NCBI GenBank assembly: GCA_001769125.1
Contig: MEOG01000126.1
Coordinates: 27,744-91,743, forward strand
DNA: 64,000 bases
Direction of reading: 5' to 3'
Source: Bacteroidetes bacterium GWF2_35_48
GTDB taxonomy: Bacteria; Bacteroidota; Bacteroidia; Bacteroidales; GWF2-35-48
The first letter of the stretch is position 1. Each line of letters begins with the position of its first letter. A model generated the notes under the pieces. The model ran no database searches and was not told the DNA's origin. It saw nothing but the letters and a program-made list of their open reading frames with translations. A program made the translations under genes and the position numbers. Shown piece after piece: positions 13,390-57,208 of this stretch.

Positions 13390-14097
13390 ATGCGAAAATT
13401 GAGTCAATTAATATTGTTTTGTTTAATCTTTTCTTTTACTACAAGCTACAGCCAGGTTGTGAAAGAAAAAAAAATGAAATTTTCAGGAGTGGTCTTTGAG
13501 AAGGACAGCCTCACAGGTATTCAGGGTGTAACAATACAGGTTAATAAAGAAAAAAAGATTGTTACTAAAGATAAGGGGCATTTTTATTTTTCAGCAGAGC
13601 CGAATGATACTATTATCATTTCGAAAGATGGTTTCAGCGAAATTGGGATTGTGATTCCTGATACGCATTACATCGAAAAAAATCTTATAGGAATATTTCT
13701 TACAAAAGATTCTTTAAGCCTGCCTGATTTCTTTATTTTACCGAGATTAGACAGTAGGGATTTGCGAAATTCAATGACAGAAACTCAGGAGTCAAAGGAA
13801 CAAATGAATGCGAAAAATAATTTAAAAATTGCAAGTTATCAGGCAAAGACAGCTCAGGGAAATGAAATGGATGCATTATCAAATCAGAAAAGCATGCTGC
13901 GGCAGTATGAGCAAAATGTAGAGTACAAGTATATGATTCCTCCTGATAAAATGATTAATTTTTCGGGCATTATTCCATACACTAAAAAGCTGATACGTGA
14001 AAAGCAATCAGAGAAGGAAGAGGTTGAGATTACAAAAAGTGAAGAAAGTCTTTTAAAATTAATTTATCTTCAAAAAAATGGAGAACCTATTCGATGA
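13390..14097 (+). CDS. secreted protein with carboxypeptidase-regulatory-like domain
   Basis: Signal peptide; FSGVVFEKDSLTGIQGVTIQVNKEKKIVTKDKGHFYFSAEPNDTIIIS. Confidence 0.65.
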   Translation: MRKLSQLILFCLIFSFTTSYSQVVKEKKMKFSGVVFEKDSLTGIQGVTIQVNKEKKIVTKDKGHFYFSAEPNDTIIISKDGFSEIGIVIPDTHYIEKNLIGIFLTKDSLSLPDFFILPRLDSRDLRNSMTETQESKEQMNAKNNLKIASYQAKTAQGNEMDALSNQKSMLRQYEQNVEYKYMIPPDKMINFSGIIPYTKKLIREKQSEKEEVEITKSEESLLKLIYLQKNGEPIR

Positions 14098-14774
14098 GTT
14101 TAAAACGCATTATTTTTATCGTACTCTTCTTTGCGCTCTGTTACTTTATTATCCGCACAAGTTCATTAATTTATTATGAATACAAAGCAGACAAAGAAAT
14201 TAAAAAAAATATTGGAGAAGGCAACTGGGCAGTACGGTATAAAATATTCATCAATGAATCTGTGAAATCAGGCGCAACTATTTTTCTTGGAAACAGCCAT
14301 ACAGAGATTTTTGATTTATCCTGTTTTGTTGATACGCTGATAGTGAATCGGGGTATTTCAGGTGATGTTACAGAGGGAGTGTTGAAAAGGCTTCCTGAGA
14401 TTTATCGTTTTAATCCAAAGAAAATTTTTATTGAAATAGGGGTAAATGATATTTTTATAAAAGTCCCCTTAAACAGGATTGTTTCAAATTATAACAAGAT
14501 AATAGCGAATATCCGCAAAAATTGTCCCGATACAAAGATTTTTATACAAAGTATTTTTCCTACCGATAATAAATCTGTCAACAAAAAAATCCTTCAATTC
14601 AATTCAGAACTGAAAGATATTTGCCAAAAGAAATTCTGTACTTACATTAACCTCTATGATTTGTTTGAAAAAGAAAAAACAATCAACCCCGGATTAACTA
14701 CAGATGGCTTGCATTTGAATGATAAGGGTTATGAAATCTGGGGAAAAACAATTTCCGGATATGTTCTGAATTAG
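14094..14774 (+). CDS. GDSL/SGNH hydrolase
   Basis: FLGNSHTEIFD, GVNDI, DGLHLNDKGYEIW. Confidence 0.85.
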   Translation: MSLKRIIFIVLFFALCYFIIRTSSLIYYEYKADKEIKKNIGEGNWAVRYKIFINESVKSGATIFLGNSHTEIFDLSCFVDTLIVNRGISGDVTEGVLKRLPEIYRFNPKKIFIEIGVNDIFIKVPLNRIVSNYNKIIANIRKNCPDTKIFIQSIFPTDNKSVNKKILQFNSELKDICQKKFCTYINLYDLFEKEKTINPGLTTDGLHLNDKGYEIWGKTISGYVLN

Positions 14775-14936
14775 TGTTTGCAAGAAAACGCCAACTACTG
14801 CTTTACTCTTGTTATGAAAACAGTCATTTACAAAAGTAAATCTACCTGTCGATAGACAGGCTTCTTGGTTTTCATGGCTTCGAAAGCCTTGTATTTGACG
14901 TTTTCTTTATCAAACACAGTGTTTTCTTGCTGACAC
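14774..14936 (+). mobile_element. Element A copy 1 (163-bp MITE-like), 6-bp TSD GAATTA
   Basis: Ends GTGTTTGCAAGAAAAC / GTTTTCTTGCTGACAC; direct repeats GAATTA at 14768-14773 and 14937-14942. Confidence 0.85.
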
Positions 14937-15045
14937 GAATTAGTTTCAGCCAAAAAACTCATATTTTTTTACTTTTTTGGCTATAATGTCAGTGTCTGAT
15001 TCAGAAAGTTCGAGTTCAAGACGTGCGAAAGCCGGACTTTATGGA

Positions 15046-15669
15046 CTAAACAAGATTTTTTACAAACATTTTTTCTCCATTTATTTCCTGCTCAGAAAAG
15101 CCCATTTGTATCAGGTAATTTTTATGAGTTTCATTCAGGCACACGGTTAGAATTTTCTCATAGCCCAGATTGTAGAAGTACTGGACATTTTCAATGTATA
15201 TGTATTTGCCAACGCTAAAATCCCGGTATTGCGGTATCACAAAATCAAGATTAATATAAAGTGTTTTTTTATTCTGCACCGAAACAATAAAAACCCCGAT
15301 AACATCAATATTATTAAGAATAAGAAAGCAGGAACTTTCAATGTTGCGTTTGTAGAAAGGAGAGTAGTGGTATATTTCTCGTTTATAGTATTCGATAAAG
15401 GTATTCAGATATTCATTGTTTGAGCGAACCTGAAGAATGTTGTAAGCATTTTTGGCAACAAAAAGTTTCGAAAACATGTAAATATCTCCTGCTAATAAAC
15501 AAGTGCTGATTATTGCAGGGGGATATATTTCAAAAATAAAGCCGATAAAACTTATGATGAATAATGCTAATAAATGCAGGAAGCGGAGAAGCTTTCCCAT
15601 TTCAAGAACGATCGAAAAGCCCAGTATACCGGTTAATCCGATAAAAAATGTTTCAATATGATTTTCCAT
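15046..15669 (-). CDS. membrane protein with GNAT-like C-terminal domain
   Basis: N-terminal TM segments; C-terminal VIPQYRDFSVGKYIY...NLGYEKILTVCLNETHKNYLIQMGF. Confidence 0.5.
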   Translation of the reverse strand: MENHIETFFIGLTGILGFSIVLEMGKLLRFLHLLALFIISFIGFIFEIYPPAIISTCLLAGDIYMFSKLFVAKNAYNILQVRSNNEYLNTFIEYYKREIYHYSPFYKRNIESSCFLILNNIDVIGVFIVSVQNKKTLYINLDFVIPQYRDFSVGKYIYIENVQYFYNLGYEKILTVCLNETHKNYLIQMGFSEQEINGEKMFVKNLV

Positions 15670-22984: not shown

Positions 22985-23118
22985 TTTTTTAAAATGTATA
23001 ATTTGTTTTGGATATACAATATTTTAAGGGAGGTTATTTTTATAATAAGGTTGCAGGTTGCAGGTTGTAACTTGTAATAACTCTCTTTCTCAAATTTTAT
23101 TTTAATCCGAATTAATTA

Positions 23119-23279
23119 ATGCTTGCATGAAAACACAATTTTTTTACCTAACAGATTAGTGCCTGATAAGAAAAGTTCAATTTCAAGGCTTTCGCAGCCT
23201 GAAAAAGCGAAGTTTACTGATGTAAATGAGCATTTTTCAGGCAAGAGCAACGATGAAAGTGGACTTTTCTTGCAGGCAC
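23119..23279 (-). mobile_element. Element A copy 2 (161 bp, reverse orientation), 6-bp TSD TAATTA
   Basis: Reverse complement starts GTGCCTGCAAGAAAAG and ends GTTTTCATGCAAGCAT; TAATTA at 23113-23118 and 23280-23285. Confidence 0.8.
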
Positions 23280-23282
23280 TAA

Positions 23283-24029
23283 TTACGTCTGCATTGCACC
23301 ACAAACACTGATAGTTTGCCCACTCACATACGAAGCCATATCTGATGCAAGGAATACACATACGCTCGCCACTTCTTCGGGTGCGCCGCCTCTTTTTAAA
23401 GGTATTTTTTCATACCAGCCCTTAACAATATCTTCGGGAAGTTTCGCTGTCATTTCAGTAACAATAAAACCCGGAGCAATCGCATTACACCTTACGTTTC
23501 GTGATCCTAATTCTTTTGCAATGGATTTAGTAAAACCAATAATTCCGGCTTTCGATGCTGCATAATTAGATTGCCCTGCATTGCCTCCTACGCCTACAAC
23601 AGAGCTAATATTAATTATGGAACCATTTTTCTGTTTGAGCATTTGTTTCTGGCAGGCTTTCGTCATATTGAAAACCGATTTCAGGTTTACATTGATAACC
23701 AAATCCCACTGCTCTTCAGTCATGCGCATGAGCAGGTTGTCCCTTGTGATTCCGGCATTATTAATAAGAATATCAATAGATCCGAAATCTTTCAATACTT
23801 CATCGGCTAATTTTTCAGAATCAGCATAATTTGCAGCATTGGATGCGTATCCTTTTGCTTTTACACCAAAACTCATAAGTTGTTCCTGAACCTGATTCAT
23901 GTTTTCATCCAGAGCAATATCTGTAAATGCAATGTTAGCACCCGCTTCCGCAAGTTTCAATGCAATTGCTTTTCCGATGCCGCGGGCAGCTCCGGTTACA
24001 ATAGCTGTTTTTCCTTCTAAAAGTTTCAT
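23283..24029 (-). CDS. fabG: 3-oxoacyl-ACP reductase
   Basis: TGAARGIGKAIALKLAEAGA; NNAGITRDNLLMRM; YAASKAGIIGFTKSIAKELGSRNVRCNAIAPGFI. Confidence 0.93.
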   Translation of the reverse strand: MKLLEGKTAIVTGAARGIGKAIALKLAEAGANIAFTDIALDENMNQVQEQLMSFGVKAKGYASNAANYADSEKLADEVLKDFGSIDILINNAGITRDNLLMRMTEEQWDLVINVNLKSVFNMTKACQKQMLKQKNGSIINISSVVGVGGNAGQSNYAASKAGIIGFTKSIAKELGSRNVRCNAIAPGFIVTEMTAKLPEDIVKGWYEKIPLKRGGAPEEVASVCVFLASDMASYVSGQTISVCGAMQT

Positions 24030-39130: not shown

Positions 39131-40042
39131 ATGAAAATAATTCATGAAATTTCTAAAATGATTTTCATTGTGAAATATCGGCTACTGTTACTATTTGGAG
39201 TTTTTTTTGTAATTAATTCTTATGCTCAAAAACTAGATTTACCTATAGACTCTACAAAAAAAATTGTATATAATTCCACATTTTTAAAAGCCCATTTGAC
39301 CAAATCAGAATTGTTTAATGTCGTTATAAGTTGGATAAAAAGTGATTTAAAAATACAATCTCCCTTAATTTTATCAGACACAATTCAATTTTCAAGAGAA
39401 ATTCCCGGATATTCAACAGAGTACGGTGGGTTGACCTATGTTGGGTTAATAAAATATAAGACAACTATAATAATTGAAGATCTAAAATTTAATATAAGAA
39501 CAGATCAAATTTATTATATTGACAATGAAAGTAAAGAAACCATTAATGCTGAAGATATTCTTTCAAAAAAAGAGTATATGGATAAATGGCATTGCTTATT
39601 AGATATGGACAAATCTGTTAGGGATTTAATTTATGAATGTGATAGAAAAACAGCAAAAAAAGTTAAAAAGAAATCGGAAAAATTTGTTTATGAAGCAAAA
39701 GAAGATAGTTATGTAGCAAACAATTCGATTTTGGATAATATCAGACTTCAGAAAGCACAAGAGGAATTAAAAAAAGCATCAAGCAAAATTATTTTTGGTA
39801 CTGCAACTATGGCGGCCGGTTCACTATTTATTTTATATAGCGTAAATGAATATAAAGGTGTAGAAAGAAGCGGAGCTTTATTAGTGGGTACAGGAATTGT
39901 TGCTACAGGATTTATATTTTCAATAATTGGAATAAAGCACCAACGCAAGACTAATAAGCTATTATGTGATTATAGCATAAACAAAACAGAGTTAAGTTTA
40001 CAAATTGGTATTAATAATATCTCTCTTTCATATAAATTTTGA
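39131..40042 (+). CDS. hypothetical protein, DUF4468-like N-terminus with TM segments
   Basis: NVVISWIKSDLKIQSPLILSDTIQFSREIPGYSTEYGGLTYVGLIKYKTTIIIEDLKFNI. Confidence 0.5.
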   Translation: MKIIHEISKMIFIVKYRLLLLFGVFFVINSYAQKLDLPIDSTKKIVYNSTFLKAHLTKSELFNVVISWIKSDLKIQSPLILSDTIQFSREIPGYSTEYGGLTYVGLIKYKTTIIIEDLKFNIRTDQIYYIDNESKETINAEDILSKKEYMDKWHCLLDMDKSVRDLIYECDRKTAKKVKKKSEKFVYEAKEDSYVANNSILDNIRLQKAQEELKKASSKIIFGTATMAAGSLFILYSVNEYKGVERSGALLVGTGIVATGFIFSIIGIKHQRKTNKLLCDYSINKTELSLQIGINNISLSYKF

Positions 40043-40114
40043 GTATTTACCTATTCTTATATTGAGTTTTGCGATGCACTGAAATGTGTTGCGTAGCAGT
40101 GCGATGTGTTGAGT

Positions 40115-40161
40115 AGTTCGATAAACTCACGAACCTCATGTCGTAATGAGTTTATCGAACT
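40115..40161. repeat. inverted repeat AGTTCGATAAACTCA / TGAGTTTATCGAACT
   Basis: 15-bp arms at 40115-40129 and 40147-40161. Confidence 0.85.
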
Positions 40162-40226
40162 GTCGAAGTATATTCCAAACAATTATTAAAAATAATCATT
40201 GTTATCCGATAAAAATTTGATAGATA

Positions 40227-40411
40227 GTGCTTGCAAGAAAACGTCAATTTCTGCGTTACTCTCAACCTGAAAAACAGTCATGTACATTAGTACACTCCTG
40301 ATTTTCAGGTCTTCGAAAGCCCTGCCTACCGGACAGGCAGGCTTGAACTTGACCTTTTCTTATCAAGCACTCACACTGTTAAGCAAAAAACAAGGGTTTT
40401 CTTGCTAACAC
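40227..40411 (+). mobile_element. Element A copy 3 (185 bp, contains 21-bp micro-palindrome insertion), 6-bp TSD TAGATA
   Basis: Ends GTGCTTGCAAGAAAAC / GTTTTCTTGCTAACAC-type; TAGATA at 40221-40226 and 40412-40417. Confidence 0.85.
40321..40341. repeat. micro-palindrome CCTGCCTACCGGACAGGCAGG inserted in Element A copy 3
   Basis: Absent at the matching position of copies 1 and 2 (aaagc|cttg). Confidence 0.85.
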
Positions 40412-40440
40412 TAGATAGCTTAAACCTATTATTAGGACTC

Positions 40441-40601
40441 ATTTTATAAACAGAGCGCTCCTATCGGAGTTTCAAAATTTATATATATGATTGTTTTTAT
40501 AAACAGTACGTCACTACCTGCCAGCCGTACTCAAGCCATTGAGGCAGGCAGGCGTGACTAAATAATAAAGAAACTCCGTAGGAGTGAACTGTTTATAAAA
40601 C
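40441..40601. repeat. Element C: inverted repeat ATTTTATAAACAG...CTCCTATCGGAGTTT / AAACTCCGTAGGAG...CTGTTTATAAAA
   Basis: ~32-bp imperfect arms; a further related arm at 40622-40641. Confidence 0.75.
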
Positions 40602-56317: not shown

Positions 56318-56815
56318 AGGACTATATTTATTAAGTTAAACCTTTGAAATTGCGGTTTACAGTAGTTAGAAATTTTAAGACACAGTGATTTTTTTGTTAC
56401 AGTGAACCGCTTTTTTTTTTGGTTCTTCGTAACAGGTTTAAACGGGCGGGTAAAATTTTTGTTTAATGAACCTGATTTATCTTTCTATACGCACATTCAG
56501 CTAATAAGTTTCATTAATTTAATTATTTTTGTGAAAATTATTTGATTTCTTAATTTTGTTATTTCCATTCTGGTGATGGAGTTCGCCATAAACTGCAATT
56601 GTGCTGATAACTCCTGCAATTTTATCTGTTTTTTTGATGTGCATTATCGTTTTCTGATTTTATGGAATTTATTATTATTAGTTGTATAATTTGAGAATAA
56701 GATATTGCACATAGGAGTAACACTTCGATGTCGCATAGCACCACAGGCAAGCTCAGTGTGGTAGAGTAGGAATAGGAATAAGAAAATCGAATTCTTTTTT
56801 TAATGAAATATATCA

Positions 56816-57208
56816 ATGGATAAAATCATATTACCGGACAATCATAAAAGAGCATTGACTTCTGCCTTGTTTGTCATAGAAAAATTAGGCGATGAGCTTA
56901 TTCATGATTTAGAATTTGCAAATAAAAAAGTGATAACACAGACAGAGCAGATAACCGATTTAGAGTCTTATAAGGAAAAGATTGAACGCATCAGAATGAA
57001 CATAAAATATGTTTTTGAAAAATACAATCTCAGCCCAGGACTATTAAGTAAGGCTCAAATAATAAATTCACGTAAAACTAAAATGTGGGAAGTTTTATGT
57101 GATTCAAAAGCTTCAAAACTGAATGTTTATGGGCAATTCCCAATGCAATATCAAAATGAATTTGATGAAGATATTGAAGCACTTTTAAAACTTACTGAAA
57201 GCATCTAA
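56816..57208 (+). CDS. small helical protein coupled to dynamin-like GTPase
   Basis: 130 aa, ends 1 bp before the GTPase start codon. Confidence 0.65.
   Translation: MDKIILPDNHKRALTSALFVIEKLGDELIHDLEFANKKVITQTEQITDLESYKEKIERIRMNIKYVFEKYNLSPGLLSKAQIINSRKTKMWEVLCDSKASKLNVYGQFPMQYQNEFDEDIEALLKLTESI

Follow-up and report, generated by a model that had tools for sequence, protein, structure and literature searches.

A 64,000-nucleotide stretch of the Bacteroidetes bacterium GWF2_35_48 genome, here called the window, carries three short and similar units bounded by duplicated hexamers, and we asked what moved them and what the sequence between their ends is. The initial annotation had described a 163-bp unit between GAATTA hexamers, and we found this unit at 14774-14936 with exact target site duplications (TSDs); the similar units at 23119-23279 and 40227-40411 were also correctly called, each with its own exact hexamer, TAATTA and TAGATA, respectively (Table 1). 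Every copy has three end-like segments, of which End1 and End3 are the terminal inverted repeats (TIRs) and End2 is an inner, inverted one. End1 and End3 of every window copy lie within two mismatches of one 16-base consensus, which is the TIR arrangement of a MITE, and the MITE size range also fits, with elements mostly 141-250 bp and a transposase-sized ORF absent from the window copies. At up to three mismatches the end motif occurs 9 times in the window compared to 2.4 times in shuffles, with 0 of 100 shuffles that high. Because copy 2 lies in the opposite orientation, its interior aligns with the others only once reverse complemented. At copy 1, ORF 14094-14774 ends in a stop codon formed by the TA of the TSD and the G of the element. 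We conclude that the three units are MITEs inserted with an exact 6-bp duplication, and their mobility is close to settled.

Table 1. Features of the three MITE copies, in window positions
Feature	Position	Strand	Basis or remark
Copy 1 left TSD, GAATTA	14768..14773	no strand	exact repeat
Copy 1, type A MITE, 163 bp	14774..14936	+	ends and TSD; End1 leading
Copy 1 End1 (left TIR), GTGTTTGCAAGAAAAC	14774..14789	+	
Copy 1 hairpin core, End1 to End2	14774..14917	-	covariance model R1, 83.9 bits (G000:C126:42517-42660)
Copy 1 small palindrome, CCTGTCGATAGACAGG	14845..14860	no strand	nested at apical hairpin
Copy 1 End3 (right TIR), GTTTTCTTGCTGACAC	14921..14936	-	
Copy 1 right TSD, GAATTA	14937..14942	no strand	
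Copy 2 left TSD, TAATTA	23113..23118	no strand	
Copy 2, type A MITE, 161 bp, inverted	23119..23279	-	End1 at 23264-23279
Copy 2 hairpin core	23159..23279	+	R1, 120.5 bits (G000:C126:50902-51022)
Copy 2 right TSD, TAATTA	23280..23285		overlaps stop codon of minus-strand ORF 23283-24029
Copy 3 left TSD, TAGATA	40221..40226	no strand	
Copy 3, type A MITE, 185 bp	40227..40411	+	
Copy 3 hairpin core	40227..40370	-	R1, 90.8 bits (G000:C126:67970-68113)
Copy 3 nested palindrome, CCTGCCTACCGGACAGGCAGG	40321..40341	no strand	beside GAAAGC
Copy 3 right TSD, TAGATA	40412..40417	no strand	

Two further repeats lie close to these copies. Just right of copy 1, a degenerate remnant at 14992-15052 resembles a type B element (GTGTCTGATTCAGAAAGTTCGAG ... 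GACTTTATGGACTAAAC) that has lost most of its core, and it extends to the stop of ORF 15046-15669. Upstream of copy 3, at 40110-40165, is another palindromic repeat, AGTTCGATAAACTCACGAAC...GTTTATCGAACT.

The host genome (5.98 Mb, 142 contigs) is rich in such elements. The sequence TAGTGNNNGCAAGAAAA occurs 139 times genome-wide versus 0 times for its reversed control, blastn with copy 1 yielded 43 matches, and a covariance model of the core yielded 129, or about 130 cores. We surveyed 114 of 126 core positions together with their flanks and found that 73 of the 114 copies are bounded by exact direct repeats 6 bp or longer, a check that the initial annotation had called for. With an insertion sequence (IS) with matching ends, described below, this supports its proposal of a small non-autonomous element moved by transposition. 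The duplicated hexamer does differ among the three window copies as had been claimed, but the target is not arbitrary, since TANNTA makes up 64 of the 73 duplications. By end sequence, 47 of the 73 are type A (GTGNNNGCAAGAAAAC, the window's type), 23 are type B (GTGTCTGTCCATAATGTC), and 3 look like chance.

Only 2 of the surveyed host-genome cores are inside ORFs, and 28 element ends are found within 15 bp of a stop codon, where the element's first G often completes a stop codon begun by the TA of the TSD. End1 points toward the stop in 23 of these 28 stop-adjacent copies (binomial p 0.0009) and in 16 of 46 copies at farther genes. Overall, orientation to neighbouring genes is balanced (17 to 17 and 12 to 12), and no replication-strand bias of the copies was seen. 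Phage and plasmid collections searched with copy 1 gave no match. In a same-genus relative both neighbour genes of copy 2 are present in order, separated by a 73-bp intergene without the element; copy 2 is thus missing between syntenic genes, although the intergene has diverged and the empty site that had been sought is not base-perfect. Relics of about 35 bp consisting of both ends, with the hairpin wholly deleted, occur at L143 (about 4016), L140 (about 4002) and G000:C27:31631-31670, the first two with a TSD, and are expected of slippage across a long hairpin. In another case, L156 3852-4016 (G051:C123), a 165-bp element with type A ends and the TSD TAAATA has an unrelated, REP-like interior (GTCATTTCAATCC) and is a second kind of MITE built from type A ends.

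The initial annotation had suggested a search for an IS with matching ends, and such elements were found in the ISNCY family, with exact type B ends in the host genome and type A-like ends in other genomes. NF033593 matched 99 of the 295 genomes of the order that were searched, with one match above cut-off in the host genome. At L164:1360-3001 of the host genome is an intact 1642-bp ISNCY-family IS with the TSD TAATTA and a 443-aa NF033593 transposase, and its ends, GTGTCTGTCCATAAACTC / GTGTCTGTCCATAATGTC (GTGTCTGTCCATAA), are type B ends. Near type A are the ends of a 1849-bp IS (L161; TSD TATATA, ends GTGTCTGAAAGAAAACT) and of a 1844-bp IS (L162; TSD TATTTA, ends GTGTCTCTAAGAAAAC). All three have the 6-bp TSD and GTG ends of the ISNCY (NF033593) group, which is presumably the ISDol1-like group of ISfinder. 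NF033593 scores were 332 bits for L164 and 384 bits for L161 against a cut-off of 325; these are scores of the partner IS, as the MITEs encode no transposase. A DDE_Tnp_1 domain is present in the ISNCY IS transposase.

In another genome, L128 holds a frameshifted ISNCY-family transposase with GTGTCTGCAAGAAAAC on one side and GTTTTCTTAGAGGCAC on the other; its left end, GTGTCTGCAAGAAAAC, is identical to type A, and close relatives of the A ends occur in L160-L162. Type A ends are present in 33 of the 295 genomes, whereas the reversed control gave 2 hits overall. A cognate autonomous element is therefore found for type B through the same-genome IS and for type A through the left end of L128 and the relatives in L160-L162. 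The host genome yielded no IS bounded at both termini by exact type A ends, though contig breaks may hide one, and type A end pairs 0.6-3.5 kb apart in the host-genome stretches read were chance matches only. Because TSD length, target and ends match between the IS and the MITEs, we identify ISNCY IS as the mobiliser, and the MITEs are probably moved in trans by an ISNCY-family DDE transposase. The two kinds of element share GTG-starting terminal repeats, the 6-bp TANNTA TSD and B ends; the MITEs differ in being mostly 141-250 bp long, in lacking a transposase and in possessing a structured core that was not observed in the IS.

Two other assignments were rejected. The IS1202 family is likewise filed under ISNCY, a provisional ISfinder category, and has ends starting 5′-TGT, TSDs of 3-5, >15 or 0 bp and a TnsB-like transposase (PMC10132070), which does not agree with GTG ends, a 6-bp TSD and a DDE_Tnp_1 domain. 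REP/REPIN sequences are tagged palindromes without a TSD and have a RAYT partner, whereas here TSDs are present and the partner is a DDE transposase.

The interior of the MITEs is a conserved, covarying structure and not a random deletion product. We aligned 26 cores with A and B ends from more than a dozen genomes over 124 columns. The fold is a three-helix hairpin made up of P1, an internal loop in which unpaired bases are invariant, P2 and, at the apex, a GTAAA/TTTAC hairpin, and the core follows the pattern GCGTT..stem..TCATKTAC-n-GTAMACTCC..stem..GCCTTG. Paired cells reach 95.7% versus at most 45% in slid versions, for a structure derived from these same sequences. In this alignment 30 of 41 pairs are altered on both sides, with 160 both-side-changed cells versus 44 in shuffles, and the unpaired A28, A93, A94 and C95 are invariant across the aligned cores. 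Within End1, a variable stretch of 3 nt is usually matched in End2 but often not in End3, which indicates that End1 and End2 make up P1 and that End1 and End3 are the ends used for transposition. The inner inverted end copy and central hairpin of the initial annotation are thus real, but they are not separate parts, since one conserved fold includes End2.

We define the minus strand as that read from End2 through the core to End1. Folding was better on this strand in 28 of 28 copies and in 96 of 100 wide-set copies, and wobble pairs in P1 lean toward it by 127 to 52. Wobbles in P2 have no strand preference (22 to 18), and with a strand-symmetric structure the count is just 32 to 23, so that a strong strand claim from wobbles is weakened. 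Because End1 is at the stop in 23 of the 28 stop-adjacent copies, the strand opposite to minus would be the one in the sense transcript. A short translated frame on the minus strand was rejected by inspection, as spacing differs between copies and leaves no reading frame.

The same core is found in other bacteria between other ends. The covariance model R1, built from copies of the window's order only, matched 24 of 396 genomes of the phylum, which are the host, G497 (with ISNCY-like ends) and 22 genomes that all belong to one further family, where GGGCRYCTCTAWWWA inverted repeats flank most of the copies read. Since Chlorobium ferrooxidans (L218) has the same ends and core, this further family is Chlorobiaceae or close to it. 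A degenerate core pattern matched at least 118 stretches in named genomes. The matches listed come from Chlorobium, Chlorobiaceae, Bacteroidales, Marinilabilia, Pseudomonas, Halomonas, Salinicola, Chromobacterium, Nitrosomonadales and Desulfobacteraceae, with a small number from Clostridia and other groups; chance alone is estimated to give about a dozen for such a pattern, so isolated matches outside the main groups are unsafe. GCCTTG, which was outside the search pattern, follows the hairpin with at most one mismatch in 100 of 108 matches listed, and inverted repeats flank 78 of 100 wide-set cores within 110 bp, again among the matches listed. The end sequences vary by lineage, with CAGGCYGTTGAAAAA and AACCTGTTCACGATCT in Pseudomonas, CTAGGCTCTGCCTGAAAA in Halomonas and TTACTGTGTCACAAAGCG in Nitrosomonadales. 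Counts of the Pseudomonas end range from 3 to 30 per strand in 11 of the 12 genomes searched, compared to 0 for the control; Pseudomonas plasmids also carry the core, in a match that overlaps no annotated feature. No IS with CAGGCYGTTGAAAAA ends was found within the Pseudomonas loci read.

G467, a genome of the Chlorobium-type family, carries an intact 1303-bp IS of the IS5 family (NF033581, 288 bits) with the ends GGGCGTCTCTAAAAAGT / GGGCACCTCGAAAAA and 4-bp TSDs, TGTA and TTAA; a core copy that it also carries has the similar ends GGGCATCTCTAAAAAGT / GGGCACCTCTAAAAACC. In Chlorobiaceae MITEs, IS5-like ends enclose the same core, whereas ends (GGGCRYCTCTA against GTG) and TSD (4 bp against 6 bp) differ from those of the window type. 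ISNCY-type and IS5-like ends around the core indicate that it goes with at least two transposase families, and ISNCY and IS5 are the two for which a parent IS was identified. Since the same core occurs between unrelated ends, we infer that all cores descend from one ancestor and that this one lineage was captured by several transposase families or acquired new ends suited to them.

Prokaryotic MITEs are short, intergenic, stem-loop forming elements with TIRs and TSDs, thought to be moved in trans (PMC10969869); unlike these in general, the elements here are conserved in their interior besides their ends, across transposase families and phyla. We consider it likely that they are ISNCY-moved MITEs with a conserved hairpin common to MITEs of unrelated transposases, and that the fold is under selection. 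ISNCY-family DDE transposases would act in trans, cutting at TANNTA and duplicating 6 bp. The folded strand, as RNA or as single-stranded DNA during replication, would be selected because it aids survival or re-mobilisation of the element, and template switching, in which one arm of the long hairpin is copied from the other, could transfer a new end across and so allow ends to be swapped. More tentatively, and with somewhat less than even confidence, we suggest that the core itself is the lasting unit, an ancient structured RNA or ssDNA parasite of several phyla that swaps TIRs to ride one unrelated transposase after another, those of ISNCY and IS5 among them, and that sX9 is a fragment of one branch.

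Template switching can keep long palindromes in step, and long near-palindromes are subject to template-switch correction. This would favor a simpler account, in which an ordinary MITE arose by internal deletion of an ISNCY IS, the hairpin is incidental and covariation reflects quasipalindrome correction and not selection; the lack of strand bias in P2 and the balanced orientation to genes are also consistent with it. However, the IS interiors read have no evident sequence in common with the MITE interior by eye, a GC versus AT mismatch between End1 and End2 persists among copies where correction should remove it, and the core is found between the ends of different transposases. Paired positions also change while the unpaired ones stay invariant, and these invariant loops suggest that template switching is not the whole explanation of the covariation. 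We therefore regard the deletion account as unlikely. Retention across different ends could also mean that the core is a separate REP-like transposable hairpin, moved as ssDNA by a Y1 transposase and inserted into many unrelated MITEs, much as other small palindromes are clearly nested in element loops. Yet in the 26 aligned copies P1 pairing extends from the core into the ends and covaries there, and the frequency of flanking inverted repeats given above for the wide-set cores also argues against it, making this the least probable of the alternatives.

Alternatively, the core could be a MITE-borne small RNA gene that is related to sX9 and targets the mRNA of the host or the transposase in trans, which its strongly conserved structure would suit. 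The Xanthomonas sRNA sX9 (RF02228), which is among the most prevalent bacterial sRNA annotations (PMC9029176), aligns with Chlorobium cores at 35.6 bits (E 0.0014), sharing AUGUAC..GUACACUCCGG..CCGUCCG over part of the core only. This score does not reach the gathering cut-off of 44, window 40000-40600 with copy 3 has no sX9 match, and sX9 lies on the plus strand, opposite to the better-folding one, so we find a small RNA gene doubtful, if less so than the two preceding accounts. Plasmids searched with the sX9 consensus gave no match. No Rfam family was found over the core at the gathering cut-off in 18 wide-set loci, and copy 3 against Rfam at E up to 10 gave nothing meaningful. The annotated sRNA sX9 (RF02228; compare L208, L211 and L193) may be transposon core in part and not an independent sRNA gene.

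MITEs moved by IS transposases are well known. A core shared among MITEs was not found described in a text search of open-access papers or in a MITE review (PMC10969869), and as far as we searched a structured core common to several end types is new. MITEs have been defined by their ends, with interiors thought to be leftovers. If MITEs of different transposase families in Bacteroidota, Chlorobi and Pseudomonadota have a conserved covarying interior in common, then the interior is itself under selection and non-autonomous elements can switch driver. It would also explain many unannotated repeats, about 130 in the host genome and tens of ends in individual Pseudomonas genomes, and a widely annotated "sRNA" family could become transposon sequence on re-classification.

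The core has a few fixed sites that harbour nested small palindromes (CCTGTCGGTAGACAGG, TTTCGGCAAGCTCAATGTATCAC and CACTAGCTGGCTCAAACACCCACAGGGTGTTTGCCC), as in L012, L013, L023, L024, L025, L052 and L085 and at 14845-14860 and 40321-40341 of the window; these palindromes look like insertions with a preference for hairpin loops. Elsewhere in the window, the only Rfam match at the gathering cut-off is a fluoride riboswitch (RF01734, 49.4 bits) at 56563-56623, upstream of ORF 56816-57208.
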